A stretch of DNA of 64,000 nt from Faecalibacterium sp. HTF-F (GTDB lineage: Bacteria; Bacillota; Clostridia; Oscillospirales; Ruminococcaceae): assembly GCF_023347535.1 (NCBI RefSeq), contig NZ_CP094473.1, positions 186,001-250,000 of the forward strand. The letters are read 5' to 3'. The translations under genes and the position numbers were made by a program. This document shows positions 8,216-30,661 of the stretch, one piece after another. Below the pieces are notes generated by a model. The model saw only the letters and a program-made list of their open reading frames with translations, ran no database searches and was not told where the DNA came from. Each line of letters begins with the position of its first letter. Position 1 is the stretch's first letter.

Positions 8216-8337
8216 AAAGAGATCCTCCTTATCGATCGGAAAAAACGTATTCCAGAATATTCTAATTTGTTTATACCCTTTCTGCCCGCAAGATGCAAGG
8301 GTTTCGGGGCTGAATTTACAGCTTTTTCACAGGAATA

Positions 8338-9033: not shown

Positions 9034-9135
9034 GATTTTTGGCTCCTCAAAGTTCGGTGGAATGGAACATCCTTGTTTTTTGTTTACAGCAGGTTGATTA
9101 TACACAACGGAAAACCTTTTGTAAAGCAAGAAAAG

Positions 9136-9163
9136 TGACGATATTTTTCGTTGATTTTCGTCA
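9136..9163. promoter_or_regulatory. Candidate operator (TGACGA-N16-TCGTCA)
   Basis: The half-sites TGACGA (9136-9141) and TCGTCA (9158-9163) form an inverted repeat in an AT-rich stretch about 100 bases upstream of the XRE gene. Autoregulation by the XRE protein is an inference. Confidence 0.45.
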
Positions 9164-9268
9164 TTTTTGTCAAAAGGCTTGCTCTGGATACCATATCTAT
9201 GTTAAACTAAAGGTATTAACGCATACATTTTGTGGCGTGCGCAAAGCGGCTGCCACCGCCAAAGGGTG

Positions 9269-13523: not shown

Positions 13524-13599
13524 GCGCTCGTAGCTCAGCCGGTAGAGCATCTGACTTTTAATCAGAGGGCCAGGGATTCGAGTTCCCTCGAGCGCACCA
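13524..13599 (+). tRNA. tRNA-Lys (anticodon UUU)
   Basis: The 76 bases fold as a complete tRNA with encoded CCA. The acceptor stem is GCGCTCG (13524-13530) with CGAGCGC (13589-13595), followed by discriminator A and CCA. The anticodon stem CTGA/TCAG encloses the loop CTTTTAA, so the anticodon is TTT. The T-arm AGGGA-TTCGAGT-TCCCT is intact. Its last 47 bases are repeated at 21671-21720 and, partly, at 39536-39572, which marks it as the integration site of two mobile elements. Confidence 0.97.
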
Positions 13600-13602
13600 A
13601 AA
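13553..13602 (+). repeat. Attachment-site copy 1 (attL of element 1, in tRNA-Lys)
   Basis: Fifty bases, from GACTTTTAATCAG in the tRNA anticodon arm to CGCACCAAAA past the CCA, are identical to 21671-21720. Direct repeats of a tRNA 3' end flanking an integrase gene are the classic signature of integration. Confidence 0.93.
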
Positions 13603-13603
13603 G

Positions 13604-13645
13604 GACGATAAATCGTTGAAAGAAACGGTTTGTCGTCTTTTTTGT
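13604..13645 (+). terminator. Terminator downstream of tRNA-Lys, supplied by element 1
   Basis: GACGATAAATCGTT pairs with AACGGTTTGTCGTC (two G-U pairs) and is followed by TTTTTTG. It follows the restored tRNA 3' end directly and differs in sequence from the hairpins that follow the other two attachment-site copies. Confidence 0.75.
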
Positions 13646-13712
13646 TTTATATGGACATTTTGGACTTGTACCTGTGATTTTTTCAAAAAATGCAGAGGTC
13701 AGAGGTACAAAA

Positions 13713-14651
13713 ATGAAGAAGATTCAGAAGAATGCAGTCCGGTTTGATAATCTAAAGCAAGATTTTTTGGACGATAAGAAGTATTCTGGCACAGCAGAAG
13801 CCACGTTGAACGGCTATCGGTATGATATTACACGGTTTTTGAAGTTCCTGTCAGATGAACAGTTAGCCGTGAATGAAGCAGGATTCAAACGGTATGTTAT
13901 CCACTTGACGGATAGCGGAATGACCGCAAACAGCGTCAACCACTATATCCGTTCGGTGAAAGTGTTCCTTTACTGGTGCATGGAGCAGGACGAAATAGCA
14001 CCGTTCAAAATCAAGATGGTAAAGGCACAAGAAACCATCAAGGACGTTTACACGCAGGGAGAACTTTGTGCGCTGATTCAGCCGCCGAAACGTGAGGACA
14101 GCTTTGTTATCTGGCGCAGTTGGGCTATCATCAACTTTATTTTGGGAACAGCAGCACGAGAAGCAACGGTCTGTGAAATGCAGATGCAGGATATATCTTT
14201 TGATGACCGAACGATTACATTTCGACATCTAAAGAATAAACACGTTCAACTGCTGCCCATGTCGGAAGCACTGGCAAGCTGTTTGAAGAAGTACATTTCC
14301 CTTTGGCGGCAGGATGCAGACGAAACAGCGTATCTGTTCCCTTCTTTTTATGATGAGCCATTATCCACAAATGCACTGAAACACAGTCAAGCCCGCTACA
14401 ATCGCAGCCGTGGCGTTGAAAAGACCAGTGTTCACCTGTTGCGGCACTCCTTTGTAAAAAACTGGTGTATGTCTGGCGGTAATGTGTTCAAGCTGCAAAA
14501 GGTGTTAGGACACAGCACCTTGACCATGACGCAGCATTATGCTAACCTGTATTCAAACGACCTGCGAGAAGGATTTGATAGCCACGCTGCACTGGATGGA
14601 TTGCAGAAAAAGCGGCGTACTGCTATTACAAAGACAGCAAAGCGGAGGTAA
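13713..14651 (+). CDS. int: Tyrosine recombinase / integrase of element 1
   Basis: This 312-residue protein is a XerC/D-like tyrosine recombinase. A SAM-like core-binding domain (about 10-95) is followed by the catalytic domain with Arg149 (GTAAREAT), a likely Lys174 (HLKNK), His241 and Arg244 (HLLRH), His267 (LGHST) and nucleophile Tyr276 (QHYAN); the full catalytic set is present. It should integrate and excise element 1 at tRNA-Lys. The ATG at 13713 has AGAGGT seven bases upstream; an ORF start at 13674 lacks a ribosome binding site. The stop is TAA, and the nuclease gene starts six bases later. Confidence 0.92.
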   Translation: MKKIQKNAVRFDNLKQDFLDDKKYSGTAEATLNGYRYDITRFLKFLSDEQLAVNEAGFKRYVIHLTDSGMTANSVNHYIRSVKVFLYWCMEQDEIAPFKIKMVKAQETIKDVYTQGELCALIQPPKREDSFVIWRSWAIINFILGTAAREATVCEMQMQDISFDDRTITFRHLKNKHVQLLPMSEALASCLKKYISLWRQDADETAYLFPSFYDEPLSTNALKHSQARYNRSRGVEKTSVHLLRHSFVKNWCMSGGNVFKLQKVLGHSTLTMTQHYANLYSNDLREGFDSHAALDGLQKKRRTAITKTAKRR

Positions 14652-14656
14652 GCCAG

Positions 14657-15163
14657 ATGCACAGCAGTTACTTTGTACTAAAGAACAAGGAAGGAAAACA
14701 GGCTGAACGGATTGTAAAGGACTATCTGACAGGCCGGGGCTATACTGTGCAGGATGTGAGCGAAGAACAGGATAATTACCAAAATGACGTTGATTTTATT
14801 GTGCAGAAAGACGGACGCACAAGCAAAATTGAAGTCAAGCTAGATACCCGGTTAGCCGAAACACAGAACATTGCCTTTGAAGATGTGTTCTATCTAAAAG
14901 ATAAGGAAACAGGACAGACGGAAACACGAGAGGGCTACTATCATTATTCACAATGCGACTTCTTGATTTTTGTAAGTCCTGCTGATAAGAACTTGTACAT
15001 GGTGCATTTTCGCAAGCTGAAAGAAAACAATGATTCGTTGGAAAACTGCTTTAAGTTTGTGAAGTTCTACTCTTATACTGACAGATGCCAAAAGGGAATG
15101 AGGGTTATTCCTATCAGCACACTAAAGGAAAAAGAGCTGTTGAGTGTCTTTTCTTACCAGTGA
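14657..15163 (+). CDS. Putative PD-(D/E)XK-type nuclease
   Basis: This 168-residue protein is coupled to the integrase (six-base gap). It has a motif pattern typical of restriction-like nucleases: a conserved Glu in QAERIVKDYL (Glu17), Asp46 in DVDFIVQKDG, then Glu59-x-Lys61 in SKIEVKLDTR, followed by beta strands. This resembles Holliday-junction-resolvase-like or VRR-type endonucleases; family assignment is by motif only. It could help excision, replication or defence for the element. The stop is TGA; a strong terminator follows at 15208-15251. Confidence 0.6.
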   Translation: MHSSYFVLKNKEGKQAERIVKDYLTGRGYTVQDVSEEQDNYQNDVDFIVQKDGRTSKIEVKLDTRLAETQNIAFEDVFYLKDKETGQTETREGYYHYSQCDFLIFVSPADKNLYMVHFRKLKENNDSLENCFKFVKFYSYTDRCQKGMRVIPISTLKEKELLSVFSYQ

Positions 15164-15207
15164 AACATAGCTGCCCGGCGGGGCAGCTACAATATAAAAA
15201 TGAATAG

Positions 15208-15251
15208 AAGGCTGCTGCACACGGTTAAATGCCAGTGCAGCAGCCTTTTTT
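15208..15251 (+). terminator. Terminator of the integrase-nuclease operon
   Basis: AAGGCTGCTGCAC (15208-15220) pairs with GTGCAGCAGCCTT (15235-15247), followed by a T-tract. A second palindrome just upstream (about 15167-15190, AGCTGCCC/GGGCAGCT around GGCG) resembles GC palindromes near the right end of the element (about 21266-21330). Confidence 0.9.
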
Positions 15252-15263
15252 CATATCTTGATA

Positions 15264-15632
15264 TCAAATTTTCTTGACAGCAGAGCCTTTTGTGCTGTGA
15301 TTCTTTTCAGATGGACTATTTTTGCTAGATTTACCAGAAAAGTCCACCGTTTCTTTTCGGGCTGCAATGTAAGAAACCAAGTCGTAAACCAGCCGCTTCT
15401 CCTGCTCGTTCATGTCCCGGAGAACAATCTGTTCTTCTGATTCAAGGCCTAAAATATCATCGGTTGTCGTATGAAATAGCTGTGCAAGGGCTACAAGGTA
15501 TTGTGCCGTTGGTGCAGAGAGTTCCATTTCCCAAGCGTTGACGCTGGCTCGTGTGACTCCTAGTTTTCGGGCAAGGGCGGACTGTGAAAGCCCAGCGTTC
15601 TCCCTTAGACGTTTGATGTTGTCCGAAATCAT
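15264..15632 (-). CDS. XRE-family repressor of element 1
   Basis: This 122-residue protein has a Cro/cI helix-turn-helix at residues about 4-60 (IKRLRENAGLSQSALARKLGVTRASVNAWE) and a basic, Ser/Lys-rich C-terminal tail. It is the only minus-strand gene of the element and so is placed like a lysogeny-type repressor. The start at 15632 follows GGGAGGCGA; a start six codons upstream is possible. Its stop codon overlaps one copy of the motif ATATC-N2-GATAT (15253-15264), of which three more copies lie before the helicase promoter. Control of the helicase operon by this protein is inferred. Confidence 0.85.
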   Translation of the reverse strand: MISDNIKRLRENAGLSQSALARKLGVTRASVNAWEMELSAPTAQYLVALAQLFHTTTDDILGLESEEQIVLRDMNEQEKRLVYDLVSYIAARKETVDFSGKSSKNSPSEKNHSTKGSAVKKI

Positions 15633-15703
15633 GTTCTCGCCTCCCTGCAATTACTTTACTATACACAAGATGATAATAAATTATCCAAAAGTGCATAGTT
15701 TTG

Positions 15704-15732
15704 TTGACAATCGGGAAGGCAAAGCGTACAAT
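15704..15732 (+). promoter_or_regulatory. Sigma-A promoter of the lipoprotein-Ltp operon
   Basis: TTGACA (15704-15709), a 17-base spacer and TACAAT (15727-15732) precede the gene at 15808 by 76 bases. Confidence 0.8.
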
Positions 15733-15807
15733 TGGAATACGGACGTTCTGCTATCACAGGAACCCGGTGTTGGCGAGAAATTCAAATGAGAAAGGAATCA
15801 CAGGAAA

Positions 15808-16650
15808 ATGAAACAGCGTGCTTTTTTAGCCATTGGAACAATCGTGCTTTGTGCCGGACTGCTTGCAGGGTGCGGAAAAATCACAAAAAGTGTGGAGATT
15901 AACTACGGCGAAACATACAAAATTGAAGATGAAAAATTAGAAGGCAAAGAAAATATGACGTGGGAAAGCGCAGACGCTGAAATTGTCGAGGTTGCGGATG
16001 ATGGCACAGTGACTGCTAAAGCACCCGGCAAAGCTAAAGTTGCAATCAAAGAGAACGGAAAATCAGTTGGGGAATATACGTTTAATGTGTCGATTGTCCC
16101 GATTGAACAGATTATTTTCTCGTCGGATACTATCGAAGTGACAGATGGTGACACCGTTGCAGTGAAATATACCTTGCTCCCGCAGAATGCAAGCGACTAC
16201 GGCATCACATGGACATCGGCAGATGAAACTATCGTAAAAGTGCGTAATGTAGATGAAGTAAAACTGATAGCTCAGTCTGAAGGAAAGACTACCATTATTG
16301 CAACCACAGATAACGGGGTGACAGCCCAGTGCGCGGTTGAGGTTGTCCCCAAAAGTGCTTATGAACAGTTGACAAAAGATGAAAAGGAATTTGTGAACGA
16401 TATTCTGCCGATTATGAGTAATTTTAAGAATCCTGCTTCAGTTCGATTTAACGCTATTTATAAGCTGTTCGATGGAAATTACACTTTAGATGTAGCGGCT
16501 CAAAATGGCTTTGGTGGCAACACCGTAACTACTTATATGTTTGATGCAAATTTGAATTATTTCCTGGAGATGGATAACTACAAAGAAACAAAGGGTAATA
16601 TGAATGCAGACCTTGTAACACAGGCGGTGCATGAAAAACTGGGCTACTGA
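15808..16650 (+). CDS. Lipoprotein with two bacterial Ig-like (Big2) domains
   Basis: This 280-residue protein has a lipoprotein signal ending in LLAGC (Cys about 22). Two Ig-like repeats follow: one with MTWESADAEIVEVADDGTVTAKAPGKAKV (about 50-95), and one with ITWTSADETIVKVRNVDEVKLIAQSEGKTTI (about 135-185); both are Big2/BID_2 type, found in surface adhesins. The C-terminal 90 residues (EQLTKDEKEFVNDILPIMSNFKNPASVRF...) are a separate domain I do not recognise. It is exposed on the cell surface and shares a promoter with the Ltp-domain protein 33 bases downstream, so the two may act together. Stop is TGA. Confidence 0.8.
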   Translation: MKQRAFLAIGTIVLCAGLLAGCGKITKSVEINYGETYKIEDEKLEGKENMTWESADAEIVEVADDGTVTAKAPGKAKVAIKENGKSVGEYTFNVSIVPIEQIIFSSDTIEVTDGDTVAVKYTLLPQNASDYGITWTSADETIVKVRNVDEVKLIAQSEGKTTIIATTDNGVTAQCAVEVVPKSAYEQLTKDEKEFVNDILPIMSNFKNPASVRFNAIYKLFDGNYTLDVAAQNGFGGNTVTTYMFDANLNYFLEMDNYKETKGNMNADLVTQAVHEKLGY

Positions 16651-16683
16651 TAATCTGTCCCTATAATATAAGAGGAAATCATA

Positions 16684-17604
16684 ATGGAGTACCACTTTAC
16701 AGGAACGGGCGGTTCACCAGACTTTACCTTTATTGCAGACGGCATTATTGATGGGACTGGGAAGTTTATTTTTTACACAGCTATCAAGAATATAAAGGTG
16801 ACACGAAAGGGCGGGAATGCGGCGTTAATAATCACCACAGCAGAAAGTGGTGTGAAAGAGCAGTGCGTTTATTTGGTAGACGGGAAAGATGAGACTGCAT
16901 TAAAAGCAGCCCTTTCAGAAATGGGAGTTATTTCTAAAGTAGACATCAAAAGGAACGTCAACAAACAAGTAAGGCGTTTCAAGAACTCAATAACCAAGAA
17001 AACTATTTTTATGACGGCAGCGGTTGTAATTTTTCTAGGTAGCTGTCTGGGATGGTATATTAACAGGCAAATACAAGTTCGTAATGCTGCAAATTCGATT
17101 ACCAGCATAGTAGAAGCTTGTGGGTTAAGTGACGTGACAGTTGATTTAAGAAGAATAAGTGATGACGGACGGACGCACTGGTATTATGCTGATGTGACTT
17201 GTTCAAACTGGGGAGAACTTAAACCAAGTAAAATGCTACAAACTTATCAAGAAATGGAAAATTCTGTTGGTTCCAAGATAAAAGTATGTAAGGAACGTGT
17301 ATCGTTGGGAAATATCTACTCAGGAGATGATTGCTATAAGGTGTACACATCTTCAAAAAGTGTGTATAAGAATAAAGACGTAATTTATAAAGGGTATGTT
17401 CCTAGCACGAGTGCGTCTAAGCATGGTTCTAGTTCTGCATCGAGTAAAACGGATGAAATACCGCAAGAAAGTAAAAATGCACTTTCAAGGGCAGAACGTT
17501 ATTATCACGACATGGATTTGTCCAAATCGCAGGTTCGCAAGCAGCTTGAATATGAAGGCTATGAAAAAGACGCGATAGACTACGCTATGAAGAATCTAAC
17601 CTAA
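16684..17604 (+). CDS. Membrane protein with C-terminal Ltp domain (superinfection-exclusion-like)
   Basis: This 306-residue protein has a cytoplasmic-looking N-terminal domain (1-100, PH-like beta pattern), one transmembrane helix (107-126, TIFMTAAVVIFLGSCLGWYI), an extracellular domain and a Ser-rich linker (about 243-255). The last 41 residues (266-306: AERYYHDMDLSKSQVRKQL, then GYEKDAIDYAMKNL) match the Ltp repeat family (host cell surface-exposed lipoprotein, PF07553). In the Streptococcus temperate phage TP-J34 that family blocks DNA entry of other phages. A role in excluding competing phages is inferred from family and from context. A terminator follows at 17621-17658. Confidence 0.7.
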   Translation: MEYHFTGTGGSPDFTFIADGIIDGTGKFIFYTAIKNIKVTRKGGNAALIITTAESGVKEQCVYLVDGKDETALKAALSEMGVISKVDIKRNVNKQVRRFKNSITKKTIFMTAAVVIFLGSCLGWYINRQIQVRNAANSITSIVEACGLSDVTVDLRRISDDGRTHWYYADVTCSNWGELKPSKMLQTYQEMENSVGSKIKVCKERVSLGNIYSGDDCYKVYTSSKSVYKNKDVIYKGYVPSTSASKHGSSSASSKTDEIPQESKNALSRAERYYHDMDLSKSQVRKQLEYEGYEKDAIDYAMKNLT

Positions 17605-17620
17605 GAGCAATCTAAGCACA

Positions 17621-17658
17621 AGACCGCAGACGGAACAAAAGCCGTTTGCGGTCTTTTC
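17621..17658 (+). terminator. Terminator after the Ltp-domain gene
   Basis: AGACCGCAGACGG (17621-17633) pairs with CCGTTTGCGGTCT (17642-17654), followed by TTTCTT. Confidence 0.88.
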
Positions 17659-17777
17659 TTATTTAGATGTGAATTTTGTCAAAACAGAGTATACTTGCCT
17701 ATTACATCCCAAAAGCCGCTATTATTGTAAAAATAGACTTTATTTTAGATTTGTTTTGCGAAATGTAAATAAAGTTA

Positions 17778-17806
17778 TTGACTTCGCTTTTACATTGAGA
17801 TACAAT
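17778..17806 (+). promoter_or_regulatory. Sigma-A promoter of the serine recombinase gene
   Basis: TTGACT (17778-17783), exactly 17 bases, then TACAAT (17801-17806). It lies 43 bases before the preferred start codon. Confidence 0.85.
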
Positions 17807-17848
17807 AAGGGTGGAGATAATCACAGGATGAAAGGACAGGCTTGCAGT

Positions 17849-18415
17849 ATGGCACACGTTGCTTATGTACGAGTTTCCACCGCTGAACAGAACGAGGCGC
17901 GGCAGATTGAAGCCCTCAAGAAGCACGGCATTGACAAGTGGTTCACGGAAAAGGTCAGTGGCAAGAACATGAACCGCCCGCAACTGGAAGCCATGCTTGA
18001 CTATATTCGTGAAGGCGATACAGTCTATATCCACGACTTCAGCCGCCTTGCCCGCAGTACCAAAGACCTCCTTGCCATCGTGGAGCAGCTACAAGCCAAG
18101 AATGTGCATCTAGTATCTAATAAGGAGAATCTTGATACCAGTACCCCCACGGGAAAGCTAATGCTGACGATGATTGCAGCCATCAACGAGTTTGAACGTG
18201 AGAATCTGCTAGAACGTCAGCGGGAGGGAATTGCAATCGCCAAAGCAGCGGGCAAGTTCAAAGGCGGTCAGGTCAAGCGCATTGACGATAAGACCTTCTG
18301 TGCAGCGTATGACCGTTACCAGCATCGAGAACTGAACAAGACCCAGCTTGCAGCAGAATTGAGAATCAGCCGCCCGACACTGGATAAGATGCTGAAGGAC
18401 AGAGGACTGGCATAA
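17849..18415 (+). CDS. Serine recombinase (resolvase/invertase family)
   Basis: This 188-residue small serine recombinase has Arg8 and the catalytic Ser10 in AYVRVSTAEQN, the conserved Arg pair in DFSRLARSTKDLL, and a C-terminal helix-turn-helix (KTQLAAELRISRPTLDKML). Such enzymes resolve dimers or invert DNA between res-like sites. I took the ATG at 17849 from family alignment; an in-frame ATG at 17828 is better spaced from GGTGGAG and is a real alternative. It is a second recombinase in an element that already has a tyrosine integrase. Stop is TAA. Confidence 0.88.
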   Translation: MAHVAYVRVSTAEQNEARQIEALKKHGIDKWFTEKVSGKNMNRPQLEAMLDYIREGDTVYIHDFSRLARSTKDLLAIVEQLQAKNVHLVSNKENLDTSTPTGKLMLTMIAAINEFERENLLERQREGIAIAKAAGKFKGGQVKRIDDKTFCAAYDRYQHRELNKTQLAAELRISRPTLDKMLKDRGLA

Positions 18416-18421
18416 TACCAC

Positions 18422-18445
18422 GCACCCCGCAAGGGGTGCTTTTTT
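18422..18445 (+). terminator. Terminator of the serine recombinase gene
   Basis: GCACCCC-GCAA-GGGGTGC (18422-18439) is followed by TTTTTT. Confidence 0.92.
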
Positions 18446-18771
18446 GTCGGAAACACACTCCCCCACCTAAAAACAAATCCGGAACGAATTTTTGTTAAAA
18501 TAGCAGTGCAGCCGTTCAATCTGTATTCAGAGAAAAAATCGTGACCGATTTAATTTTTACCCGGTTTGTGTTCATAACACAGAAAAATCCAAACGATATG
18601 CGATATGGCACCGATGTGAATAAATATTCATAAATAAAGAAAAATGCAGGATATTCAAATATGAGCGATTCATATCAAGATATAGCTTAATCTCATATCT
18701 TGATATGAAATAGTGGCTTAATATCGTGATATAATGCCAATTCTGTTCATAAAAATTTCACAAATTTTCCC
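18446..18771. other. AT-rich control region upstream of the helicase
   Basis: This 330-base stretch has no ORF with a ribosome binding site. It contains three copies of ATATC-N2-GATAT (18672-18683, 18695-18706, 18721-18732), two of which form a perfect 13-base inverted repeat. The AT-rich sequence next to a helicase gene could also be a replication origin; nothing else distinctive is seen. Confidence 0.5.
18671..18732. promoter_or_regulatory. Triple operator-like motif ATATC-N2-GATAT
   Basis: Copies at 18672-18683 (N2 = AA), 18695-18706 (TT) and 18721-18732 (GT) lie 40 to 100 bases upstream of the helicase -35 box. A fourth copy at 15253-15264 overlaps the stop codon of the XRE gene. Spacing between copies is 23 and 26 bases. 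Binding by the element's XRE protein is inferred. Confidence 0.6.
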
Positions 18772-18800
18772 TTGACAAGCCCGGAGAAGTGGAGTATAAT
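18772..18800 (+). promoter_or_regulatory. Perfect consensus promoter of the helicase gene
   Basis: TTGACA (18772-18777), exactly 17 bases, then TATAAT (18795-18800), the full sigma-A consensus. The untranslated leader is about 88 bases and contains two small hairpins (AGACTG/CAGTCT; GCCGT/ACGGC). Confidence 0.93.
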
Positions 18801-18893
18801 TATGCACGAAAGACTGAATATGCAGTCTGAGCGCCGTTGAGTTGCCTACGGCACAGTAAAGGCACACAATATCAGAACGAAAGGGGTCGTTAT

Positions 18894-20282
18894 ATGACTA
18901 ATCGACAGTAGAGCTATCTTAGAATCTCGGATTACCAAAGCTGGACAGCGGGCATCTACCTTATAGATGCACCGTGCGGTAGCGGTAAGAGCAGCTTCGT
19001 CATGAATGTGCTTTATCCGTATGTCCATGCGGGTGGCAAGCGGATGATACTGTTCTCTAATCGAAGAGCATTGCTGGAACAACAAAGACGGCAAACACAG
19101 GGTACAGACGCAACGTGCATGATTTGCCAAAAATTGGAGTACGACTTCAATCATGGCAGGAAAGCAATAGAATGGGTCGAAAGAAATTTTGATTACATTA
19201 TTATAGATGAAGCACACTACCTATTCCAAGATGCGCTGTTTAACCGCAACACAGAAATCATGCTGGATATGGTGGAACAGCTTCAGGAATCTAAAGTTAT
19301 CGTCTTGATGTCTGCAACAGCGGGCTTACTGAAAAAGTATTTTGTCGGCAAGATAAAAAAGACCTACCATGTATCAGCAGATTACAGTTATATTAAGACG
19401 GTATATTGTTATACTACACCGGATTCTGTCAACAAAATTTTGAATGAAGTTCCTCTGGGTGAAAAGGTGGTCATGTTCGGGGATAATAAAAAGCGTCTAC
19501 GAACATTGCATCGCGAGTACCCGGATAGTGAATATCTGAACAGCGGGAACAAAGACGAAAGTCTAGCATTTCGGCAGATAACGCAGAACGAGTGCTTCAG
19601 CTGTCAAATGCTATTTACCACTAAAGTTCTGGACAATGGTGTAAACCTGAAGGACAAAGCTATTAAACACATTATAATAGAACAAACCGATATGGTAGAG
19701 TTCATGCAATGTTTGGGGCGTAAGCGCGTTCAAAGTCCAGATGATACAATAACTTTGTATTTCCTTAATAGTGTTTTCAGTATTGCAGGGCGATACAAAG
19801 ATTTGAAGAGAGACTTAGTGATTGTTCAACAATATCTGAATGCAAGAGCATCAGGTTATGAGCAAGGGTTCTGGAAAATCAACAGAACTGAATATATTCC
19901 TCTGATGTTCGACAATTCACACCATCTAGTAAAACCTGCATACTACAAAACATTAAGTGACTGTGCATTTTACAGAGATATTCTGAATAAGAAAACGTCA
20001 CTTGTTCAGTAGGTCAGAGAATCTTTAAAATTACCCATTATTCCGTATGAACGAGTTTCAAAAGATTATAAGTTGAATTATTATCTTTCTCAAAATGTTG
20101 GAAGAAAGTATTTTAAGGATGATAGAAACGAATTGATTGAAAAAATTAATCTAAGACAAGACGGACATATAAAAAGTTCGTTTAAGCTGCTTTATCAATG
20201 TCTGATGGAAAGTAATGTCGATTTCACCTTGAAAAGCGGAATCGACAACAGAAAAGTCTATTGGACGATTGAGCCAAAATAA
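18894..20282 (+). CDS. DEAH-box helicase with two in-frame TAG codons (amber-recoded candidate)
   Basis: Read with TAG as an amino acid, this is one open frame of 462 residues from ATG 18894 (after AAGGGG) to TAA 20280-20282. TAG occurs at codon 6 (18909-18911) and codon 373 (20010-20012); no TGA, TAA or frameshift interrupts it. Walker A is at residues 26-34 (APCGSGKSS), DEAH at 105-108 (IIIDEAH), SAT at 140-142, and an Arg-rich motif VI-like LGRKR follows later: a superfamily 2 helicase or ATPase. There is no start codon between the first TAG and Walker A; the next ATG (19002) lies beyond it, so standard decoding cannot make an active ATPase. The contexts NRQ-TAG-SYL and LVQ-TAG-VRE tolerate Gln. 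It probably acts in replication of the element. A decayed pseudogene is the alternative. Confidence 0.75.
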
Positions 20283-20512
20283 AGATGCAAAAAATCTACG
20301 TCACCCTTAATATTAAAGGTGACGTAGAAAAACTGCACAGGATTCACAGGTCTGCCCGTTTGCGTTCGCTTTACGGGCTACCTCTGCGGGCAGATAAAAA
20401 GAAGGTGATAAGGTTTTGAAGAAATGTTTTTTGTATTAGATTACAAGCAAGATGTAGCCAAATTGCAATGTGGCTATCAAAATAAATAGATTTTTATTAA
20501 GGAGGACATCTT
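20283..20512 (+). other. Gap between helicase and HNH gene
   Basis: No convincing gene. A 44-codon ORF (20285-20419, MQKIYVTLNIKGDVEKL...) lacks a ribosome binding site. A near-perfect hairpin TCTACGTCACC/GGTGACGTAGA lies at about 20294-20327 with its T-run on the minus strand. A second stem, CTGCCCG/CGGGCAG, spans about 20353-20396. The bases 20500-20506 (AAGGAGG) are the ribosome binding site of the HNH gene. Confidence 0.5.
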
Positions 20513-21202
20513 ATGTAGAATGTTTTCAACTGTCTTGATGAACTCAAGAGGTTTAAAGAAATTCCGCCTAATACTATTGTTATAGAAGAACGGAATGGAA
20601 AAACGGTTACATGGCAGTAGATACCCTCTGAACAAACAGATGGGTATGATACAGGTGCAAATTATCTTGTTAGTGATTAGGGCGATTCCTATTCGATTCA
20701 TCGACACAGCTGTATGAAAAACCATGATAATGGTAATGGCTATTTCGGTATCAATTTAAGATACGGAGGTGAGATGCATCGAAAAAGCCTTAGTCACACA
20801 ATCTGGAATACATTTGCACCGCAGGAAGAAAGAATATATAATTGGATAGAAGCCGGGATGCAGATAAATCATCTTGACGAAAACCCGGCGAATAATTCTT
20901 TTTCAAATCTGAAACCGTGTACCCCAAAAGAAAACTGTAACTACGGCCATCACAATGAGCGGATTTCAGCGGCGAACAGAGGCCGTCAAATGTCAGATGC
21001 ACAGCGACAGCATATTAGTGAAGCGCTCAAAGGAATTGGCGCAAAGGCGGTTGTCTAGTTGGATGCGGCTGGAAATGTCGTTGACAGTTATCCAAGCATT
21101 ACGGATGCAGCGCAAAAAACCGGGGCTGACTCTGGCAATATAAGTGCTGTCTGTAATGGGCGGCGACATACCGCTGGCGGTTATCACTGGCAGTTTATCT
21201 AA
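20513..21202 (+). CDS. HNH endonuclease with four in-frame TAG codons (amber-recoded candidate)
   Basis: After an excellent AAGGAGG ribosome binding site, the frame runs from ATG 20513 to TAA 21200-21202 (229 residues) with TAG at codons 2, 36, 56 and 182 and no other interruption. The HNH core INHLDENPANNSFSNLKPCT ... NYGHHNER (118-150) is that of phage-type homing endonucleases, followed by a NUMOD/IENR1-like DNA-binding repeat (SYPSITDAAQKTGADSGNIS, NGRRHTAGGYHW). That repeat normally begins VVQLD.DGN; here it reads VV-TAG-LDAAGN, which places Gln at the TAG. Likewise LVSD-TAG-GD matches the VSNQG motif of the N-terminal part. So TAG = Gln is supported by two family positions. No in-frame start codon lies between codon 2 and the third TAG. 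Confidence 0.75.
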
Positions 21203-21643
21203 AAATTCAAGTCTATCGAAATAAAACCCGATAGGCTTTTCTTTTAGATTTACACACAGAACTCCTGCCCGGCGGGGCAGGGTTGCAGCATCTAACAGGA
21301 TACATAAAGACCCCGCCGGGCAAGTAGAAAGAGTAGACAAACAAAAGATATATTTTAAGTTGGTATGACAGGAATAATAGAAAAGGCTGGGTGGCTGTTC
21401 TAATAGACGTTCTGACAGCTTTTCTCTTTTTAGATACAAAAGCGGACGCACAAACAGAAGAACGCTTATAGGGCTTGCTAGAACCTGTTTTCATAAACCG
21501 AAATCCAGCATAAAGACACGGCTTTGAATGTTGACTTTTTGACGATATGAAGTTATAATTTATATATCGAAATCACAGGTACAAGATACCGAAAAATCAG
21601 ATGTCCTAAAAATTATAAAACGTATTATCGTTCTAAAACAAGA
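21203..21643 (+). other. Right-end region of element 1 without genes
   Basis: A terminator-like hairpin (GTCTATCG/CGATAGGC plus T-run) lies at about 21209-21242. GC palindromes built on TGCCCGGCGGGGCA occur at about 21266-21282 and, inverted, at about 21310-21325; a similar one follows the nuclease gene near 15170. These could be recombinase or repressor sites. A consensus promoter (21531-21559) points to the right end. No ORF with a ribosome binding site is seen. Confidence 0.5.
21531..21559 (+). promoter_or_regulatory. Consensus promoter pointing out of the right end of element 1
   Basis: TTGACT (21531-21536), 17 bases, TATAAT (21554-21559). In the integrated state it reads into the attachment site; in an excised circle it would read across the joined site towards the integrase at 13713. 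Confidence 0.75.
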
Positions 21644-21717
21644 GAACTCGTAGCTCAGTCGGTATTTCGCGACTTTTAATCAGAGGGCCAGGGATTCGAG
21701 TTCCCTCGAGCGCACCA
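21644..21717 (+). pseudogene. tRNA-Lys-like remnant containing attachment-site copy 2
   Basis: The 3' 47 bases are identical to the tRNA-Lys, but the 5' part (GAACTCGTAGCTCAGTCGG) is degenerate. The acceptor stem has two mismatches, the D-stem GCTC lacks its partner, and the anticodon stem pairs only next to the loop. The anticodon would be UUU, not CUA, so this is neither a working tRNA-Lys nor an amber suppressor. It marks attR of element 1 and attL of element 2 (identical repeat 21671-21720). Confidence 0.85.
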
Positions 21718-21720
21718 AAA

Positions 21721-21756
21721 TCCCACGAAGAATCGCAAGATTCCTCGTGGGATTTT
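21721..21756. terminator. Hairpin after attachment copy 2
   Basis: TCCCACGA-GAATC pairs with GATTC-TCGTGGGA (21721-21752), with T-rich sequence after it. A diverged version follows attachment copy 3 (about 39579-39618). Confidence 0.7.
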
Positions 21757-21772
21757 CTTTTTATACGCCATT

Positions 21773-21802
21773 TGCACGGTCTCTGCACGGTTTTTGCACG
21801 GT
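21773..21802 (+). promoter_or_regulatory. Left arm-type integrase sites (three TGCACGGT)
   Basis: TGCACGGT occurs at 21773-21780, 21784-21791 and 21795-21802, with 11-base spacing. The mirror set lies at 39366-39395. Position, number and regular spacing fit arm-binding sites for the integrase N-terminal domain. Confidence 0.65.
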
Positions 21803-21869
21803 CCGCATTTTTCGTGTCAGATGGAGTAAGTCTGTGAATTACTCTGCAATTCGTGCTATTTTTTGCAAT

Positions 21870-23255
21870 TCAGGTCAGCAGAGCCAGGCGAAGCTGCGCT
21901 TTTACGGCAGGGTCTGCGTCCTTCAGAAGCTCCAACAGTGCCGACACGGAGATAGTCGGTTCTGCTTCAACCGGGGCAGCCTGCACAAGTGTTGCTCCCG
22001 GCTTGTAGAAGCCTTCCTCGAACTTTTTGCCCAGCTTTTTGCGGGAATCCTGCTGGATGTGTGCATAGGTGTTGACCAGAAGATTAGCGCTGGCATGGCC
22101 CGTTGTGCCCTGTACCGCTTTCACATCGCCGCCGGAGATCATCAGTTGGTAGGTGGCACTGGAATGCCGCAGGCCGTGAAACACGATGCGAGTGAACTCC
22201 GGGTGCTCGTCCTGCCACTTGATGAACTTCTTGCGGATGAGGATCGGCTCTACCGCCAAACCGTTGGGCAGGCGCAGCAGCATCCCGCTGTTGCGATAGC
22301 GTTCCGGGTCAACAGCTTCGTCCATTTCCAGACGCTTTAGCCAGTGCTTCAATTCCTCTTTCAACACGGCTGTCATGAAAATGGTTCGGTTGGAAGATGC
22401 TGTTTTGGTCTTTTTGAGCACTAGCGTTGTGGTGCTGCCCTCACGCTTATCCTCAAATTCCTGCAGGATGCAGTCCTTGCCTGTTTTTGCCAGCGATGCC
22501 TTCTGGACACGCTGCATACACTTGTTGATGCGGAAAGTGCCTGTACCGTCTGCTCCATCAAAATCAAGATCTTCCGGAGTCAGGCCAGCGACTTCGCCCT
22601 CTCGCAGCGCGCCCACCAGCGTAAGATGGACAGCCAGATGCAGAATCGGATCCTCCATGCTGGCAAGTGCGGCCCACATCTCGTCCGCATCCCAGATGGC
22701 ACGCTCCTGAATCGACTTTTTAGGGCTGTCCACCGGAACGGGGCTTTTGATGAGGATACCCCACTCCACCGCATATTGGAACGCTGTCCGCAGCAGGCGG
22801 TGTACCTCGTGGATGGTCGTGCCGGAGAGAAACCGCTGCTGCTGTTTTTCCGAAAGCACCTGCTTTTTGCCCTCATAATACTGGCCGCAGGGCGTTTTGC
22901 CAAGAGTAGCATACAGGTTCTCCAGATGGTAGGGCTTGAGCTTTTGCATCTGCATATCGCCGATGTACGGAATAATGAGGTTCTGGACCGTTCCCAGATT
23001 GGATTGATAGGTCTGCGGTGCCCACTTGTGCTTGTTACACTGTTTGGGAAGCCACTCCATCAAAAACTCTTTGACGGTGATGGTGGACGGAATCAGAAAC
23101 GTTCCGTTTGCCAGTTCATGTTCGATTTGTTTTTTGCGGTTTATTGCCTCCTCTTTCGTGGAAAAACTTTCCCATTTGTTGCAGTTTTTACCCTGCTCGT
23201 CTTGGTAAGTATAGCGGACACCATAGGAGCTGCCACGTTTTGTGATATATGCCAT
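21870..23255 (-). CDS. int: Tyrosine integrase of element 2
   Basis: This 461-residue integrase has an AP2-like N-terminal arm-binding domain (GVRYTYQDEQGKNCNKWESF, about 11-35), a SAM-like core-binding domain (about 60-170), and a catalytic domain with Arg218 (GALREGE), His360/Arg363 (FHGLRHS), His387 (TGHAS) and nucleophile Tyr397 (NTYAHI). It is like Tn916- and phage-type integrases. The 3' end lies about 150 bases from the attachment site. The ribosome binding site is GGAGA. It differs strongly from the shorter integrase of element 1, so the two elements arrived separately at the same tRNA. Confidence 0.95.
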   Translation of the reverse strand: MAYITKRGSSYGVRYTYQDEQGKNCNKWESFSTKEEAINRKKQIEHELANGTFLIPSTITVKEFLMEWLPKQCNKHKWAPQTYQSNLGTVQNLIIPYIGDMQMQKLKPYHLENLYATLGKTPCGQYYEGKKQVLSEKQQQRFLSGTTIHEVHRLLRTAFQYAVEWGILIKSPVPVDSPKKSIQERAIWDADEMWAALASMEDPILHLAVHLTLVGALREGEVAGLTPEDLDFDGADGTGTFRINKCMQRVQKASLAKTGKDCILQEFEDKREGSTTTLVLKKTKTASSNRTIFMTAVLKEELKHWLKRLEMDEAVDPERYRNSGMLLRLPNGLAVEPILIRKKFIKWQDEHPEFTRIVFHGLRHSSATYQLMISGGDVKAVQGTTGHASANLLVNTYAHIQQDSRKKLGKKFEEGFYKPGATLVQAAPVEAEPTISVSALLELLKDADPAVKAQLRLALLT

Positions 23256-23270
23256 ACGTTATCTCCTTTT

Positions 23271-23561
23271 TCAAGCTGCCCGGAGCCACGCATCGAAACT
23301 GTCTTTCGGGATGCGGATGCTTCCGCCTACCCGCAGAACACGGAATTCGGTGGTGCTGTTGCACAGGTTGTAAGCAGAGCGCAGGCTGATGGACAGCATC
23401 TGTGCGATCTCCTCTACCGTGTACACCAGTGTTGTGGCTTTCAGGCTGTCAGTCGGAGACTTGACGGCATTGGTTTGAGTGACCACTTCCATTGTATCGT
23501 TATTCGGAATGGTCTGCAAGATATTTTTCGTATAATCCAAAGATTTCACAGTTTCGGTCAT
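23271..23561 (-). CDS. xis: Excisionase-like helix-turn-helix protein
   Basis: This 96-residue protein ends in a MerR-like winged helix-turn-helix (residues about 46-94: VYTVEEIAQMLSISLRSAYNL, RVGGSIRIPKDSFDAWLRAA), the excisionase/HTH_17 pattern. It lies 15 bases upstream of the integrase gene on the same strand, as expected for Xis. The N-terminal 45 residues are Thr/Asn-rich and unfamiliar. GGAGGA precedes the ATG. It should control the direction of recombination. Confidence 0.85.
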   Translation of the reverse strand: MTETVKSLDYTKNILQTIPNNDTMEVVTQTNAVKSPTDSLKATTLVYTVEEIAQMLSISLRSAYNLCNSTTEFRVLRVGGSIRIPKDSFDAWLRAA

Positions 23562-23601
23562 TGCTGTCCTCCTTTTGTCAGGTGCATATTCGTTTCGTGA
23601 A

Positions 23602-24438
23602 TCAGCCGATCAACGATTTCATGGATTCCAACTTTTTCTGTGCGTTCTCTTTGCGAAGACTTGCCCCGATGCAGGAAATTGGAACGCACATTTCCAGAAT
23701 GCGGTCATAAATGCGGGCGTGAGCAGTATCCTGTGGATGCCGTATCTCGTTCAGCGGCAGGTTGGTGGTGACGATCAGCGGTTTTTGGCTGCGGTATCTG
23801 CTGTCCACGATGTTGTAGACCTGTTCCAGCGCATACTCTGTACCACGTTCCATCCCGAAATCGTCAATGATGAGCAGTGGATAGCGGCAAAGCTTGTCTA
23901 CAATTGCATTCCGCCCGGAAAAGCTGTTGTTCAGCTCATTCATGATGCAGGCAAAGTTCGTCATACGCACAGGCACTTCCTGTTCCATTAGAGCGTTTGC
24001 AATGCACCCGGCAAGGAAACTCTTGCCGGTGCCCACACCGCCCCAGAGGAGCAGGCCTAGGTTCTCTGCACGCATGATCTGCCATCGCTCCACATAGCGG
24101 TGTGCGTAATGCATTTGAGGGGCACGACCATCGTCGTTTTCAAAGTTCCAGTCGAGCATTGCCGTATCCGAGAAGCCTCCTGCTTTCAACCGTCGGACAA
24201 GTTCGCTGTGCGTTTGCTGACGAATAGCGACTTCCTGTTGCTCTCGCTCCATCTTACGACACCGGCAATCTACGGGATGCCTGTTCTTTCCCATCAGGAC
24301 AAGGTTATTTGCAAAGAACGCTTCTTTTGGCGTATGACGCTTTCCACAATGAAGCAGGCCATCTTTGCCATAATAGTCCCCATTCGATTTGGAAACTGCG
24401 GGAATGACCGGTTCTAAAACGGTCTTTCCGGTTGTCAT
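23602..24438 (-). CDS. DnaC-like ATP-binding replication protein
   Basis: This 278-residue AAA+ protein has Walker A GGVGTGKS (about 132-140), Walker B LLIIDDFG and sensor-1 IVTTNLP, as in DnaC/DnaI helicase loaders and IstB. An N-terminal Cys cluster (LHCGKRH ... DCRCRK, about 30-62) resembles the zinc-binding region of DnaI-type loaders. Its start overlaps the stop of the RepA-like gene (ATGA), so the two are coupled; together they suggest an autonomous replication module active when element 2 is excised. Confidence 0.85.
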   Translation of the reverse strand: MTTGKTVLEPVIPAVSKSNGDYYGKDGLLHCGKRHTPKEAFFANNLVLMGKNRHPVDCRCRKMEREQQEVAIRQQTHSELVRRLKAGGFSDTAMLDWNFENDDGRAPQMHYAHRYVERWQIMRAENLGLLLWGGVGTGKSFLAGCIANALMEQEVPVRMTNFACIMNELNNSFSGRNAIVDKLCRYPLLIIDDFGMERGTEYALEQVYNIVDSRYRSQKPLIVTTNLPLNEIRHPQDTAHARIYDRILEMCVPISCIGASLRKENAQKKLESMKSLIG

Positions 24439-24950
24439 AAGCTTTCTCCTTCCCGAAATTCATACAGTGGAACATTTCTTTGTTTTGTATGGTGGTTAAA
24501 ACTCAGTTTGTTCTTATTCAGGTAGTTAGGTGGGCATTTTTGCACAATCATATTGGTCATTTCTGCACAGTCTGATGAGCCAGAAATGCGCAGAGTGGCA
24601 GTGCATTTTTGCGCTGTATGCGGAGTTTTGAGAAAAATTCTGCTGGGCTTTGAAAAACCGCTGCGAGTCCGCTCAATAAGGCCGGCATTCGTTAGTTCTG
24701 TAAGAGAACGCGTTATACTGGAGAAGCTGCACCCAAGGGTTTGTGCCAGCTTTGGAATCGGATAGACCACATAAATCCGGCCCTGTTCATCGGTCCAGTT
24801 GTTTTTTCGGGAAAGTGTTGCCCGGTCGAGCAGAAGTGCGTACAGCAGCTTTGCTGTATGGTTTAATTGGGCGTCCAGCAAAAACTTTGGAAATGGCAGA
24901 TACCGGGGTAGCGGAGTACAAACGGTCAAATCATCAAACAAGCCAATCAC
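24435..24950 (-). CDS. RepA-N-like replication initiator
   Basis: This protein of about 171 residues carries the RepA N-terminal domain pattern: PRYLPFPKFLLDAQLNHTAKLLYALLLDRATLS, then a winged-helix segment with VVYPIPKLAQTLGCSFSSITRSLTELTNAGLIER. The C-terminal part (about 110-171) is short and Asn/Lys-rich. I place the start at GTG 24950 because it overlaps the ParB-like stop as GTGA; an upstream ATG at 25031 would overlap parB by 85 bases, and a TTG at 24941 is also possible. Confidence 0.75.
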   Translation of the reverse strand: MIGLFDDLTVCTPLPRYLPFPKFLLDAQLNHTAKLLYALLLDRATLSRKNNWTDEQGRIYVVYPIPKLAQTLGCSFSSITRSLTELTNAGLIERTRSGFSKPSRIFLKTPHTAQKCTATLRISGSSDCAEMTNMIVQKCPPNYLNKNKLSFNHHTKQRNVPLYEFREGESL

Positions 24951-25969
24951 TCTCCCTGTCGCTGCGATTCCAGCATTTTCTGGCGCTTCGTGCGGATAAA
25001 GTCCAGATAGCGCTGCAGACTGTCGGCACATTTTTCAATTCGCTTCCAGTTTTCCGAGGTCGTCAGGAGATCCGGATACTCTCGAAACGTGAGCTCCCAA
25101 TTCTCGATAAAGGCGTCATAAGCACCTTCAATCGCAGCAATGTGGATGGAATGATCCGCAGGTGCTTCAACAGATTTTTTCAGGGCTTTTTGATCACTTT
25201 CGGTCAGTGCCCTTTTGTGCCCTTGTACTTTTTTTGAAATGCCGATCAGAAATCGACTTCCGTCATCATCAAAAGATTCGACCTTCACGGAAGGGCTTTT
25301 TGTAGAGGAAGCAAGCTGCTTATCCCGTTTACTTTTCGGTTTGCGAAGTTCTGCAACGATTTTCGACCGCTGTTCCTTCGGAGCCTTAGCGATAGCGCAG
25401 ATCTCACGGTCAGCAGCTTTGATTTTCCCGTTTAGAATTTCCTCCCGGGCAGCGGGTGCTGCTTCATCGGCAGCCTCCACGCCGTTCATGTACTTTTCGG
25501 CACGTCGTACCGTCGCAGACCCAACACCATGTTCTACGGCGATTCGTTCGCAAGTGCGTTTTTCTGAATCGATGTGATCATTTTGATCACATCGATTTAC
25601 TTTATTGCAATTTCCGGGCTGCCCGCCCACTGCCAGCTTGGTTGATTCATACTCTTTGCCCAGAAGAAACTTCTTTCGTTCCGGGCTGAGATTTCTGCGG
25701 CCAAGCTGATTTTTGCAGATCCATGCAAGCGCTTCATACTTGTTCGCAAGCTGGATTTCTTCCACTTCAAACTTGATAAAGCCGTGCTTTTTCAGGATGC
25801 GGTAGCGGGTGTGCCCATCCAGAATGTAGCCATTCCATGTGATGATGGGATTCAGAAGACGACCCTCGGCAATGATGTTCTGCTCAAGCTGCTGGAGCTC
25901 CTCAAAACTCAGCGGCAAAATTTGAGCGGAAAACTCGGGGTCTATTTTGAGACTGCTTAGTTTCAGCAT
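24947..25969 (-). CDS. ParB/RepB-like partition or nuclease-domain protein
   Basis: This 340-residue protein has the ParB/Srx fold signature: LSFEELQQLEQNIIAEGRLLNPIITWNGYILDGHTRYRI (about 20-60). A helix-turn-helix-type central region (CERIAVEHGVGSATVRRAEKYM) and a basic linker follow. Such proteins occur beside RepA in Firmicute plasmids and integrative elements, for segregation or regulation; no ParA is present here. The ATG at 25969 has GGAGGCGAACA upstream; the frame extends seven codons more with a TTG. It heads the operon parB-repA-dnaC-xis-int. Confidence 0.8.
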   Translation of the reverse strand: MLKLSSLKIDPEFSAQILPLSFEELQQLEQNIIAEGRLLNPIITWNGYILDGHTRYRILKKHGFIKFEVEEIQLANKYEALAWICKNQLGRRNLSPERKKFLLGKEYESTKLAVGGQPGNCNKVNRCDQNDHIDSEKRTCERIAVEHGVGSATVRRAEKYMNGVEAADEAAPAAREEILNGKIKAADREICAIAKAPKEQRSKIVAELRKPKSKRDKQLASSTKSPSVKVESFDDDGSRFLIGISKKVQGHKRALTESDQKALKKSVEAPADHSIHIAAIEGAYDAFIENWELTFREYPDLLTTSENWKRIEKCADSLQRYLDFIRTKRQKMLESQRQGE

Positions 25970-26321
25970 ATTGTTCGCCTCCTTTGACAACAGTGTACCG
26001 GTTTCCGCAGCAAAAGTTTATGGACTCGTAGTCCAAGTTACCCACCCCCTTAGTCCATGTGTTGTATACAATGATGCAAAATAAAAAATCCGAGCCAATT
26101 CTACGATGCTATAGTGTCATGTGGGTCAGATCAGGGAAACGGTGAAATTTGATAAGTCCAAAATGATGTTATTTTAAATTATGACAAATGAATTTGTAAA
26201 AAGCGCTTGACATTGATAATCAAAGCAGAGTATACTTAGCCCAATGACAGAGTGAAATCCGCTCTGGCTTTCTTTTTCAAAAGCTTTTGTTCTTTATTGC
26301 ACGTGACAACTGAGGTGTGAA
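25970..26321. promoter_or_regulatory. Divergent control region of element 2
   Basis: This gene-free region separates the replication operon (minus) from the restriction operon (plus). A palindrome TGGACT-CGT-AGTCCA at 26021-26035 and a further AGTCCA at 26052-26057 are operator- or iteron-like. On the plus strand TTGACA (26207-26212), 18 bases and TATACT (26231-26236) form a promoter. The leader then has a small hairpin (CAGAG/CTCTG, about 26249-26267) followed by a T-rich run, possibly an attenuator. Confidence 0.65.
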
Positions 26322-26909
26322 ATGAATCTTGGAGAAATTGCAGATATCCGTAGCGGACTTGTCCTTTCTCGAAAACAGGCAAGAGCTGACTCCCCGCAGG
26401 CGATACGATACCACCAACTTAGTCTACGGGCGGTAAAAGCGGAAGGTGAGATTGATCCTGCTGAATTGGAGCCGTATTTTGCGAAAGAACCATTGTCCAT
26501 GGACTATCTGACGCAACCAAATGACATTGTAGTGCGCTTGACTGCCCCCTACACAGCAGTTTTGATTGACGACACCACACGCAACTTGGTGATCACGTCG
26601 AATTTTGTGGTAATTCGCATTCGGGGAACAGAGCTTATGCCGGGATATCTTTATTGGTATCTGAACACGCCGAAAGCAAAAAGGCAGATCTATCAAAATA
26701 CCACCAAAAGTATGATCAGCTCCGTAAACGCAAGGTATTTTTGCCGCTTGGAGCTTCAGCTGCCATCGCCGGAAATACAACGCCAGATGGAAGCGCTTCG
26801 CTTGCTGGCACAGCAGGAACTACGCCTTCTGCGTAAGTTGGAAGTTGAAAAGCGAAGCTGCTATGAGGCGATGCTGGAACAAATGAATCACGCACAGAGG
26901 AAAGGATAA
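26322..26909 (+). CDS. HsdS-like protein with a single target-recognition domain
   Basis: This 195-residue protein looks like one half of a type I restriction specificity subunit. The N-terminal LGEIADIRSGLVLSRKQ and the central QPNDIVVRLTAPYTAVLIDD, LVITSNFVVIRI are typical of a TRD, and the C-terminal LRLLAQQELRLLRKLEVEKRS is the coiled-coil conserved region. A full HsdS has two TRDs; a half-subunit could dimerise or act as an alternative specificity partner. It opens the operon, six bases before hsdM, whereas the full-size hsdS lies 1 kb beyond hsdM. Confidence 0.75.
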   Translation: MNLGEIADIRSGLVLSRKQARADSPQAIRYHQLSLRAVKAEGEIDPAELEPYFAKEPLSMDYLTQPNDIVVRLTAPYTAVLIDDTTRNLVITSNFVVIRIRGTELMPGYLYWYLNTPKAKRQIYQNTTKSMISSVNARYFCRLELQLPSPEIQRQMEALRLLAQQELRLLRKLEVEKRSCYEAMLEQMNHAQRKG

Positions 26910-26914
26910 CGACT

Positions 26915-28462: not shown

Positions 28463-28571
28463 ATGTTTAAATGAGGCTATGCACGATTTATGATGCAAAA
28501 ATTCTGAAATATTGTTGTTTAAATTGTACATTGGCGTATGATATACTTTCTTATGGAAGGGAAGCAAGAAT

Positions 28572-29486: not shown

Positions 29487-29499
29487 GGACGGCTGAAGT

Positions 29500-30660: not shown

Positions 30661-30661
30661 A

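Follow-up and report, generated by a model that had tools for sequence, protein, structure and literature searches.

The window analysed here, a stretch of 64,000 nucleotides from Faecalibacterium sp. HTF-F (contig NZ_CP094473.1, positions 186,001 to 250,000 of the forward strand), contains a small integrative element at a tRNA-Lys gene, and the last two genes of this element encode a superfamily II (SF2) helicase and an HNH endonuclease. Both frames run from ATG to TAA with six TAG codons (ambers) as the sole stops, and neither contains a TAA, a TGA or a frameshift. This pattern, claimed in the initial annotation of the locus, is confirmed by translation. The good ribosome binding sites described there are also found, as the Shine–Dalgarno-like sequences AAAGGGG (18880–18886) and AGGAGG (20500–20505) 5' of the two ATG codons, and so are the CAA and CGA sites said to have stayed unmutated, the two genes together holding 19 CAG, 19 CAA and 9 CGA codons.

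When TAG is read as glutamine (Gln), the helicase is matched by the Pfam families ResIII (E 2.8e-9) and DEAD and carries a GSGKS Walker A motif and a DEAH motif, while the HNH protein is matched by I-HmuI_NUMOD-like above the Pfam cut-off (E 7.2e-8), with HNH_3 and NUMOD1 slightly below it. The AlphaFold models reach a mean predicted local distance difference test score (pLDDT) of 85.4 for the helicase and 84.6 for the HNH protein, and the best Foldseek matches of the helicase model are SF2 helicases, at modest TM-scores. In these models, codon 373 of the helicase is placed within a helix before the C-terminal part, and HNH codons 36 and 182 at the end of a strand and within a strand, respectively. 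The first ATG, GTG or TTG past TAG6 is codon 37, which lies beyond the Walker A motif, and therefore a helicase open reading frame (ORF) restarted there under translation table 11 should not be active as a helicase. A further protein, P0039, joins part of a helicase to an HNH domain.

Relatives of the two proteins and a sister element with exchanged genes

The protein relatives were compared in aligned sets comprising 24 of the 81 helicase matches and 22 of the 35 HNH matches. The earlier claim that HNH/NUMOD proteins usually have Gln at two of the TAG columns is borne out in part: all 22 aligned relatives have this residue at HNH codon 182, and a minority of them has it at HNH codons 2 (2/22), 36 (4/22) and 56 (3/22). 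Column 6 of the helicase shows Gln in five relatives, Glu in four, Lys and Met in three each and a gap in nine, and column 373 shows Gln in five, Glu in eight, Val, Leu and Phe in one each and a gap in eight. Gln is strongly supported at codon 182 and occurs at the remaining five positions in the nearest relatives only. The closest of these, P0003 for the helicase (97% identity) and P0084 for the HNH protein (98%), have Gln at all six positions; both are available as protein records only, and it is more likely that they carry sense codons than TAG codons already translated as Gln.

The helicase segment past TAG373, which is supposedly beyond the reach of the ribosome, appears not to be relaxed: compared with P0003, the window protein has no change in the 89 codons 374–462 and 14 changes in the 366 codons 7–372, and compared with P0004 it has 11 changes in 89 past codon 373 and 44 in 322 before it. 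Moreover, five helicase relatives known as proteins only (P0005–P0008 and P0034) end directly before column 373, and two of them, P0005 and P0006, also start at codon 37, matching the expectation for an upstream stop such as TAG6. P0003 and P0005 are identical over residues 294–372, so that one and the same sequence is known both in a form that stops here and in one that continues. A second type, represented by P0006 and P0008, is identical to the window protein at 49 and 48 of these 79 residues (about 61%) and has the same end point. For the HNH protein, the relative P0121, with 77% identity over 95 residues, begins at Met68 and stops directly before Gln164, a column at which 21 of the 22 aligned relatives have Gln and the remaining one a gap.

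Close helicase relatives were not found in the IMG/VR and GTDB records. The distant ones from these sources, mostly at 24–37% identity, show no stop where they align and are uninformative on the code, and among 396 genomes of the family the window helicase (P0001) matched six other genomes, all of them distantly. Two observations concern gene pairing and recombination among the relatives: the HNH protein P0089 is 52% identical overall to that of the window and nearly identical over its last ~45 residues, a probable swap of the NUMOD tail, and P0009 and P0089, both with 3598 bp as their longest contig, probably belong to the same helicase–HNH pair.

A search of related genomes for the same element had been suggested as a check, and the DNA of 31 genomes of the genus yielded a sister element in the congener G417 with TAG in both corresponding genes. 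Its Ltp gene has 94.9% nucleotide identity to that of the window (nonsynonymous divergence dN 0.033, synonymous divergence dS 0.130) and its resolvase gene 85.8% (dN 0.056, dS 0.68; dN/dS about 0.08). Both elements also share the noncoding DNA that surrounds and separates their last two genes, while the genes in these two slots differ: in the sister element, one of 432 codons encodes a helicase-like phrog_2467 protein and one of 237 codons a NUMOD4/HNH protein. This combination of differing genes and kept noncoding borders is, on sequence comparison, a gene-cassette exchange. Each of the two sister genes contains a single in-frame stop, which is again TAG, at codon 46 of the phrog_2467 gene and at codon 13 of the HNH gene. 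TAG46 falls between the Walker A motif and the remaining phrog_2467 protein, and in an alignment along its length with two phage homologues this column is Gln in one and Lys in the other. TAG13 is weaker evidence, as a GTG start past it would leave 215 codons, although the ATG has a GGAGG ahead of it. In total, TAG occurs in four of the four operon-slot genes and in none of the nine other genes of both elements (P 0.0014), a count that leaves out a TAG located upstream in G417, in an extension of the integrase that starts at TTG and lies outside the 333-codon integrase ORF.

P0120 was found in only one of the 31 genus genomes and gave nothing in IMG/VR, and exact DNA patterns of the element likewise gave nothing in IMG/VR and only the window itself among the 396 family genomes, a draw that excluded G417, which carries the pattern. 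A short conserved stretch 5' of the HNH gene (20420–20500 in the window, 6440–6520 on L115 in G417) can be read either as a small ORF, in a frame that gives similar residues, or as a TTG-started frame, in which each element has two TAGs with the same spacing; a leader peptide and an RNA are candidates for what it specifies.

The integrative element and its control region

The element (Table 1) has a GC content of 41.5%, compared with 59.9% in its left flank, and resides in a host genome assembled as a single contig of 2.78 Mb. The 47-bp attachment (att) core that bounds it is present a second time in several congeners. Upstream of the helicase gene, the promoter and the operator-like sites look intact. 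The operator-like palindrome TATCNNGATA has four matches in the window, all inside the element, where 0.26 would be expected, and four were reached in none of 100 shuffles; upstream of the sister operon there is one copy of an operator of this type, which is weak on its own (18 of 200 shuffles have one). Terminator-like hairpins number seven in the element, against 6.3 expected. Neither phage structural or lysis genes nor a packaging or capsid-redirecting gene were recognised among the element genes and proteins with Pfam and phrog profiles, and the Big_2 protein resembles phage proteins with immunoglobulin-like (Ig-like) domains through that domain alone.

Beyond the element, a second island is apparently integrated in tandem at the same tRNA-Lys (window 21720–39583), with a third copy of the att core (94%) at 39536–39583. 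Its genes include a tyrosine recombinase (21870–23255, minus strand), an IstB-like gene and the HsdM and HsdR genes of a type I restriction system.

Table 1. Features of the integrative element in the window, with the location of its sister element
Feature	Position	Strand	Remarks
Integrative element, ~8.1 kb	13556–21720		bounded by two exact 47-bp copies of the tRNA-Lys 3' part (13556–13602, 21674–21720)
tRNA-Lys(ttt)	13524–13599		ARAGORN/Rfam search
Tyrosine recombinase (integrase)	13674–14651	+	Phage_integrase E 4.1e-27; no TAG in frame
Small protein, phrog_5018	14657–15163	+	no Pfam match; no TAG
Helix-turn-helix (HTH) transcriptional regulator, candidate repressor	15264–15650	-	phrog_8 E 2.5e-18; no TAG
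Ig-like (Big_2) protein	15808–16650	+	Big_2 E 5e-15; no TAG
Lipoprotein_Ltp / superinfection-exclusion-like protein	16684–17604	+	Pfam; phrog_4980; no TAG
Serine resolvase	17849–18415	+	Resolvase E 1.3e-45; no TAG
Operator-like palindromes, three copies	18673–18731 (18673, 18696, 18722)		fourth copy at 15254
Sigma70-type promoter	18772–18800	+	12/12 consensus positions, 17-nt spacer; consensus match only
SF2 helicase gene	18894–20282	+	462 codons; TAG at codons 6, 373
In-frame TAG, helicase codon 6	18909–18911	+	translation
In-frame TAG, helicase codon 373	20010–20012	+	inside predicted helix; P0005–P0008, P0034 end at this column
Hairpin between helicase and HNH genes	20295–20328		terminator-like on minus strand
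Noncoding stretch kept with sister element	20350–20460		genes on either side differ
HNH endonuclease gene, I-HmuI/NUMOD type	20513–21202	+	229 codons; TAG at codons 2, 36, 56, 182
In-frame TAG, HNH codon 2 (ATG TAG)	20516–20518	+	translation
In-frame TAG, HNH codon 36	20618–20620	+	translation
In-frame TAG, HNH codon 56	20678–20680	+	translation
In-frame TAG, HNH codon 182	21056–21058	+	translation; Gln column in aligned relatives
3' noncoding region kept with sister element	21203–21500		DNA comparison
Degenerate tRNA copy	21644–21714		under Rfam cut-off; TTT loop as in tRNA-Lys
Sister element in G417	L115 5400–10300		compared with window 16684–21500

Stop identity, decoding capacity and competing explanations

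If the six stops of the window genes are treated as single-base nonsense changes, the probability that all are TAG is 0.0018–0.0039 for kappa values of 1–8, and if all six were C-to-T changes, the probability that all fell at CAG is 0.0025. The share of TAG among one-step nonsense changes is 0.35–0.40 in the window genes and 0.36–0.45 in the sister genes, and for both elements together, in which eight of eight stops are TAG, the chance probability is 2.4e-4 to 7.7e-4. These TAG-only values are weakened by the post-hoc choice of an odd case. Comparison with other HNH genes was made in two controls. Among the 396 family genomes, 7 of 33 other HNH matches are interrupted (two of the seven are probably pieces of one gene), with eight TAA, two TGA and no TAG, which differs from the eight TAGs of both elements with P 2.3e-5. 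Among 63 HNH matches in fetched loci, six are interrupted, by three TAA and three TAG, and two of the three TAG matches (L323 and L324) are equal in identity and span. When the controls are pooled, with the locus common to both counted once and L323 and L324 kept separate, 3 of 15 stops are TAG, and the difference from eight of eight has, by our own arithmetic, P about 3e-4. The HNH relatives broken by a single TAG each, L323, L324 and L328, are all on IMG/VR contigs. A codon-usage scan of 15 congener stretches, many of them at this tRNA-Lys, relied on a model too weak to be used, since the window genes themselves score near zero; it flagged ORFs in L119 and L173 as split by an amber, which match HsdM_N and Radical SAM/SPASM, respectively, and were set aside. 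The Radical SAM/SPASM gene (L173 in G404, 8162–9232, minus strand) has a single in-frame TAG at codon 138.

Several results weigh against the decoding of TAG as Gln, and part of them can be accommodated by decay, according to which the element became stuck in the chromosome, selection on its replication and endonuclease genes lapsed and the stops all came to be TAG by chance. P0003 and P0084, at 97–98% identity, carry Gln at each of the six positions, so that fixation of the TAGs is improbable, and relatives of this kind appear to be common. For the relatives ending at column 373 or before Gln164, which are protein records, the stop may be a codon other than TAG, and other helicase matches (12 in the genus and 40 in the fetched loci) contain no stop. 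Moreover, a 114-residue product of the HNH interval between TAG56 and TAG182 was not found outside the window, and therefore the HNH ambers may be recent. The HNH variants P0122–P0124 have ends that are altered or frameshifted, and P0007 and P0034 are fusions of integrase, Big_2 and helicase parts, as from internally deleted copies of the element; decay thus evidently occurs in this gene family. HNH genes of this kind also break often, as the first control indicates, and half of the stops in the second control are TAG. According to the consulted part of PMC7918605, a phage gene that holds several in-frame stops is likelier to turn into a pseudogene than into a domesticated gene. However, the eight stops in the two elements are accompanied by no indel, TAA or TGA, in contrast to the 396-genome control, although the fetched-loci control is less clean in this respect, and the helicase C-terminus past TAG373 appears not to be relaxed. 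The window genes display neither mixed stops nor indels, and relaxed constraint is unseen in the protein-level comparison. Overall, decay is a serious competitor, which we hold to be the less likely of the two main explanations. As an observation on the two fusion proteins, their deletions kept the frame and they occur in several data sources.

The decoding capacity of the hosts also counts against TAG as a Gln codon. An anticodon could be assigned to each of the 64 tRNA genes found in the host (E up to 0.001) and of the 65 above-threshold tRNAs of G417, and in none of them is it CTA; five weaker matches in G417 are no tRNA by ARAGORN. An element-borne suppressor tRNA was considered and rejected, as ARAGORN and Rfam gave only the tRNA-Lys, its degenerate 3' copy and chance-level matches. 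A CTA-type anticodon-arm pattern has a match in 30 of the 31 genus genomes; when four such loci were examined by ARAGORN, three proved to be ordinary Arg, Ser and Leu tRNAs and one (in G329) no tRNA, and the remaining matches mostly repeat the sequences of checked loci. Two adjacent tRNA genes of G417 (L213, 9178–9388), for Ser-CGA and Ala-CGC, score lower than most. Furthermore, the window contains a Pfam-supported host gene, of the HI0933 family, that has TAG as its terminator, and therefore TAG should by default terminate translation in the resident host. In an automatic count, 5 of 35 host ORFs end in TAG, but some of those counted are probably antisense (one is located opposite HSP70 and two have no Pfam match). 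As for the elements themselves, none of the eight genes of the window element and none of the five of the sister element end in TAG. In published recoded phages, a suppressor tRNA is carried by 375 of 715 table-15 phages (PMC11210395, as excerpted) and by 13% of 285 TAG-recoded genomes (PMC9610469, as excerpted), which suggests that such a tRNA is not obligatory and that the lack of one would leave recoding possible.

Low-level read-through would dispense with a suppressor, the host Gln tRNAs (CUG and UUG) misreading UAG often enough to supply the helicase, and the HNH protein rarely or never. The host has two tRNA-Gln(CTG) genes and one tRNA-Gln(TTG) gene, and conserved TAG/CAG alternation with dN/dS below 1 is reported for bacterial genes in the consulted part of PMC7918605; nevertheless, with four ambers in 229 codons, one of them right after the ATG, an unaided HNH product would be vanishingly rare, and we regard this explanation as quite unlikely. 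A sequencing artefact, in which modified cytosines were wrongly read as T in a single assembly, would fit the Gln-bearing forms in relatives and an assembly of one contig whose method is unknown. The base before TAG (four G, two A, one T and one C), however, follows that before the remaining CAG codons (14 G, 11 A, four T and two C) without any motif, and proteins ending at column 373 come from other data sets, while a second genome has the same trait, which leaves the artefact very improbable indeed. A methylation-driven hot spot of CAG-to-TAG change was rejected on the same comparison of preceding bases, which covers eight sites only.

Taken together, the claim that TAG is read as Gln here stands on the identity of the stops, the conservation past TAG373, the Gln residues in the nearest relatives and the sister element; it is left open to doubt by the failure to find a suppressor tRNA in these searches, the host gene ending in TAG, the seemingly common Gln-bearing relatives and the HNH relatives that look frameshifted.

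Proposed conditional decoding and known counterparts

On balance, we consider it somewhat probable that the last two genes of the element, for the helicase and the HNH protein, are an inducible operon in which TAG can stand for Gln and in which the ambers are read as Gln when a suppressor is present. What is observed, and supports this reading, is the presence of TAG as the only in-frame stop, the conserved sequence beyond TAG373 and the recurrence of the trait in a sister element whose genes have been exchanged; the decoding itself, its supplier and its benefit are inferred. The operon would most likely be repressed while the element is integrated, and any transcript would in addition be blocked at translation until Gln is supplied at UAG. 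The operon would thus yield no working helicase or HNH protein in the resident host, in which TAG normally terminates translation. The simplest source of a suppressor would be a tRNA(CUA) from a TAG-recoded phage or from another element; once it is present, both proteins could be made and the element could be processed or replicated. For such an element, it would make no difference whether a codon is CAG or TAG, and both forms would circulate.

A more specific and doubtful extension of this conditional reading is a genetic-code lock, in which the helicase–HNH operon is written in code 15 and made only when a TAG-recoded phage brings an amber-suppressor tRNA. The integration, exclusion and resolvase genes would stay in the standard code, and the helper would be sensed and exploited via its genetic code, in an arrangement that would persist even through the replacement of the locked genes by unrelated ones. 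If the conditional reading is true, the recoding of stop codons is not confined to phage genomes and also reaches small integrative elements of bacteria that use the standard code, and, with no resident suppressor tRNA, the code would have to come from a partner. This would provide a concrete test case for the purpose of recoding, namely a conditional switch. Moreover, ordinary gene callers would split such genes and hide them as pseudogenes.

In its gene content, the element resembles phage satellites such as those related to the phage-inducible chromosomal islands (PICI), which are small, reside at a tRNA gene and carry an integrase, an HTH regulator, a replication-type operon and an exclusion-like lipoprotein. 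Site-specific integration at a tRNA gene by its own integrase is likewise shared. Unlike in these satellites, a packaging or capsid-redirecting gene was not recognised here. To our knowledge, ambers are not part of the descriptions of such satellites. Recoded phages, in turn, were reportedly surveyed in 2022 by Borges and others.

The gut phages using code 15, crAss-like and others, share with the element the presence of in-frame TAG in a standard-code host and genes that never end in TAG, and many of them also have no detectable suppressor tRNA, according to the consulted parts of PMC11210395 and PMC9610469. In two crAss-like phages, Gln at TAG is reported from proteomics (PMC9523058, as excerpted), and recoding is discussed as a switch towards lysis in the excerpted parts of PMC10607447 and PMC10879173. 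However, the present case concerns an 8-kb integrative element without recognised structural genes and with TAG in two genes only, which are of helicase and homing-endonuclease type and do not belong to the late structural or lysis genes in which phage recoding is concentrated. The bacterial TAG/CAG alternation described in PMC7918605 is similar in that the two codons swap at orthologous positions while the frame is conserved; the example given in the consulted part involves one TAG column, whereas the two genes of the operon described here have two and four, and the sister element provides a parallel.

The individual proteins also have known counterparts. The window HNH protein matches positions 30–217 of the I-HmuI profile (PDB 1u3e) with E 1.3e-25, and differs from that family in that its gene, with four in-frame TAGs, is the second of two in an operon of an integrative element. 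The sister phrog_2467 protein aligns along its length, with ~32% identity, with proteins of Bacillus phage SPR and Clostridioides phage pCD1602_4, in a family known from the SPbeta group and other phages, and differs from these in the in-frame TAG at codon 46. An element of this kind is not described in the open-licence papers listed on recoding in satellites or mobile elements, on recoded prophages, on recoded phages in general (20 of 264) and on this kind of host, as judged by titles and the starts of abstracts, and the nearest published cases, as far as their consulted parts extend, are the recoded phages and the TAG/CAG alternation in bacterial genes (PMC7918605).

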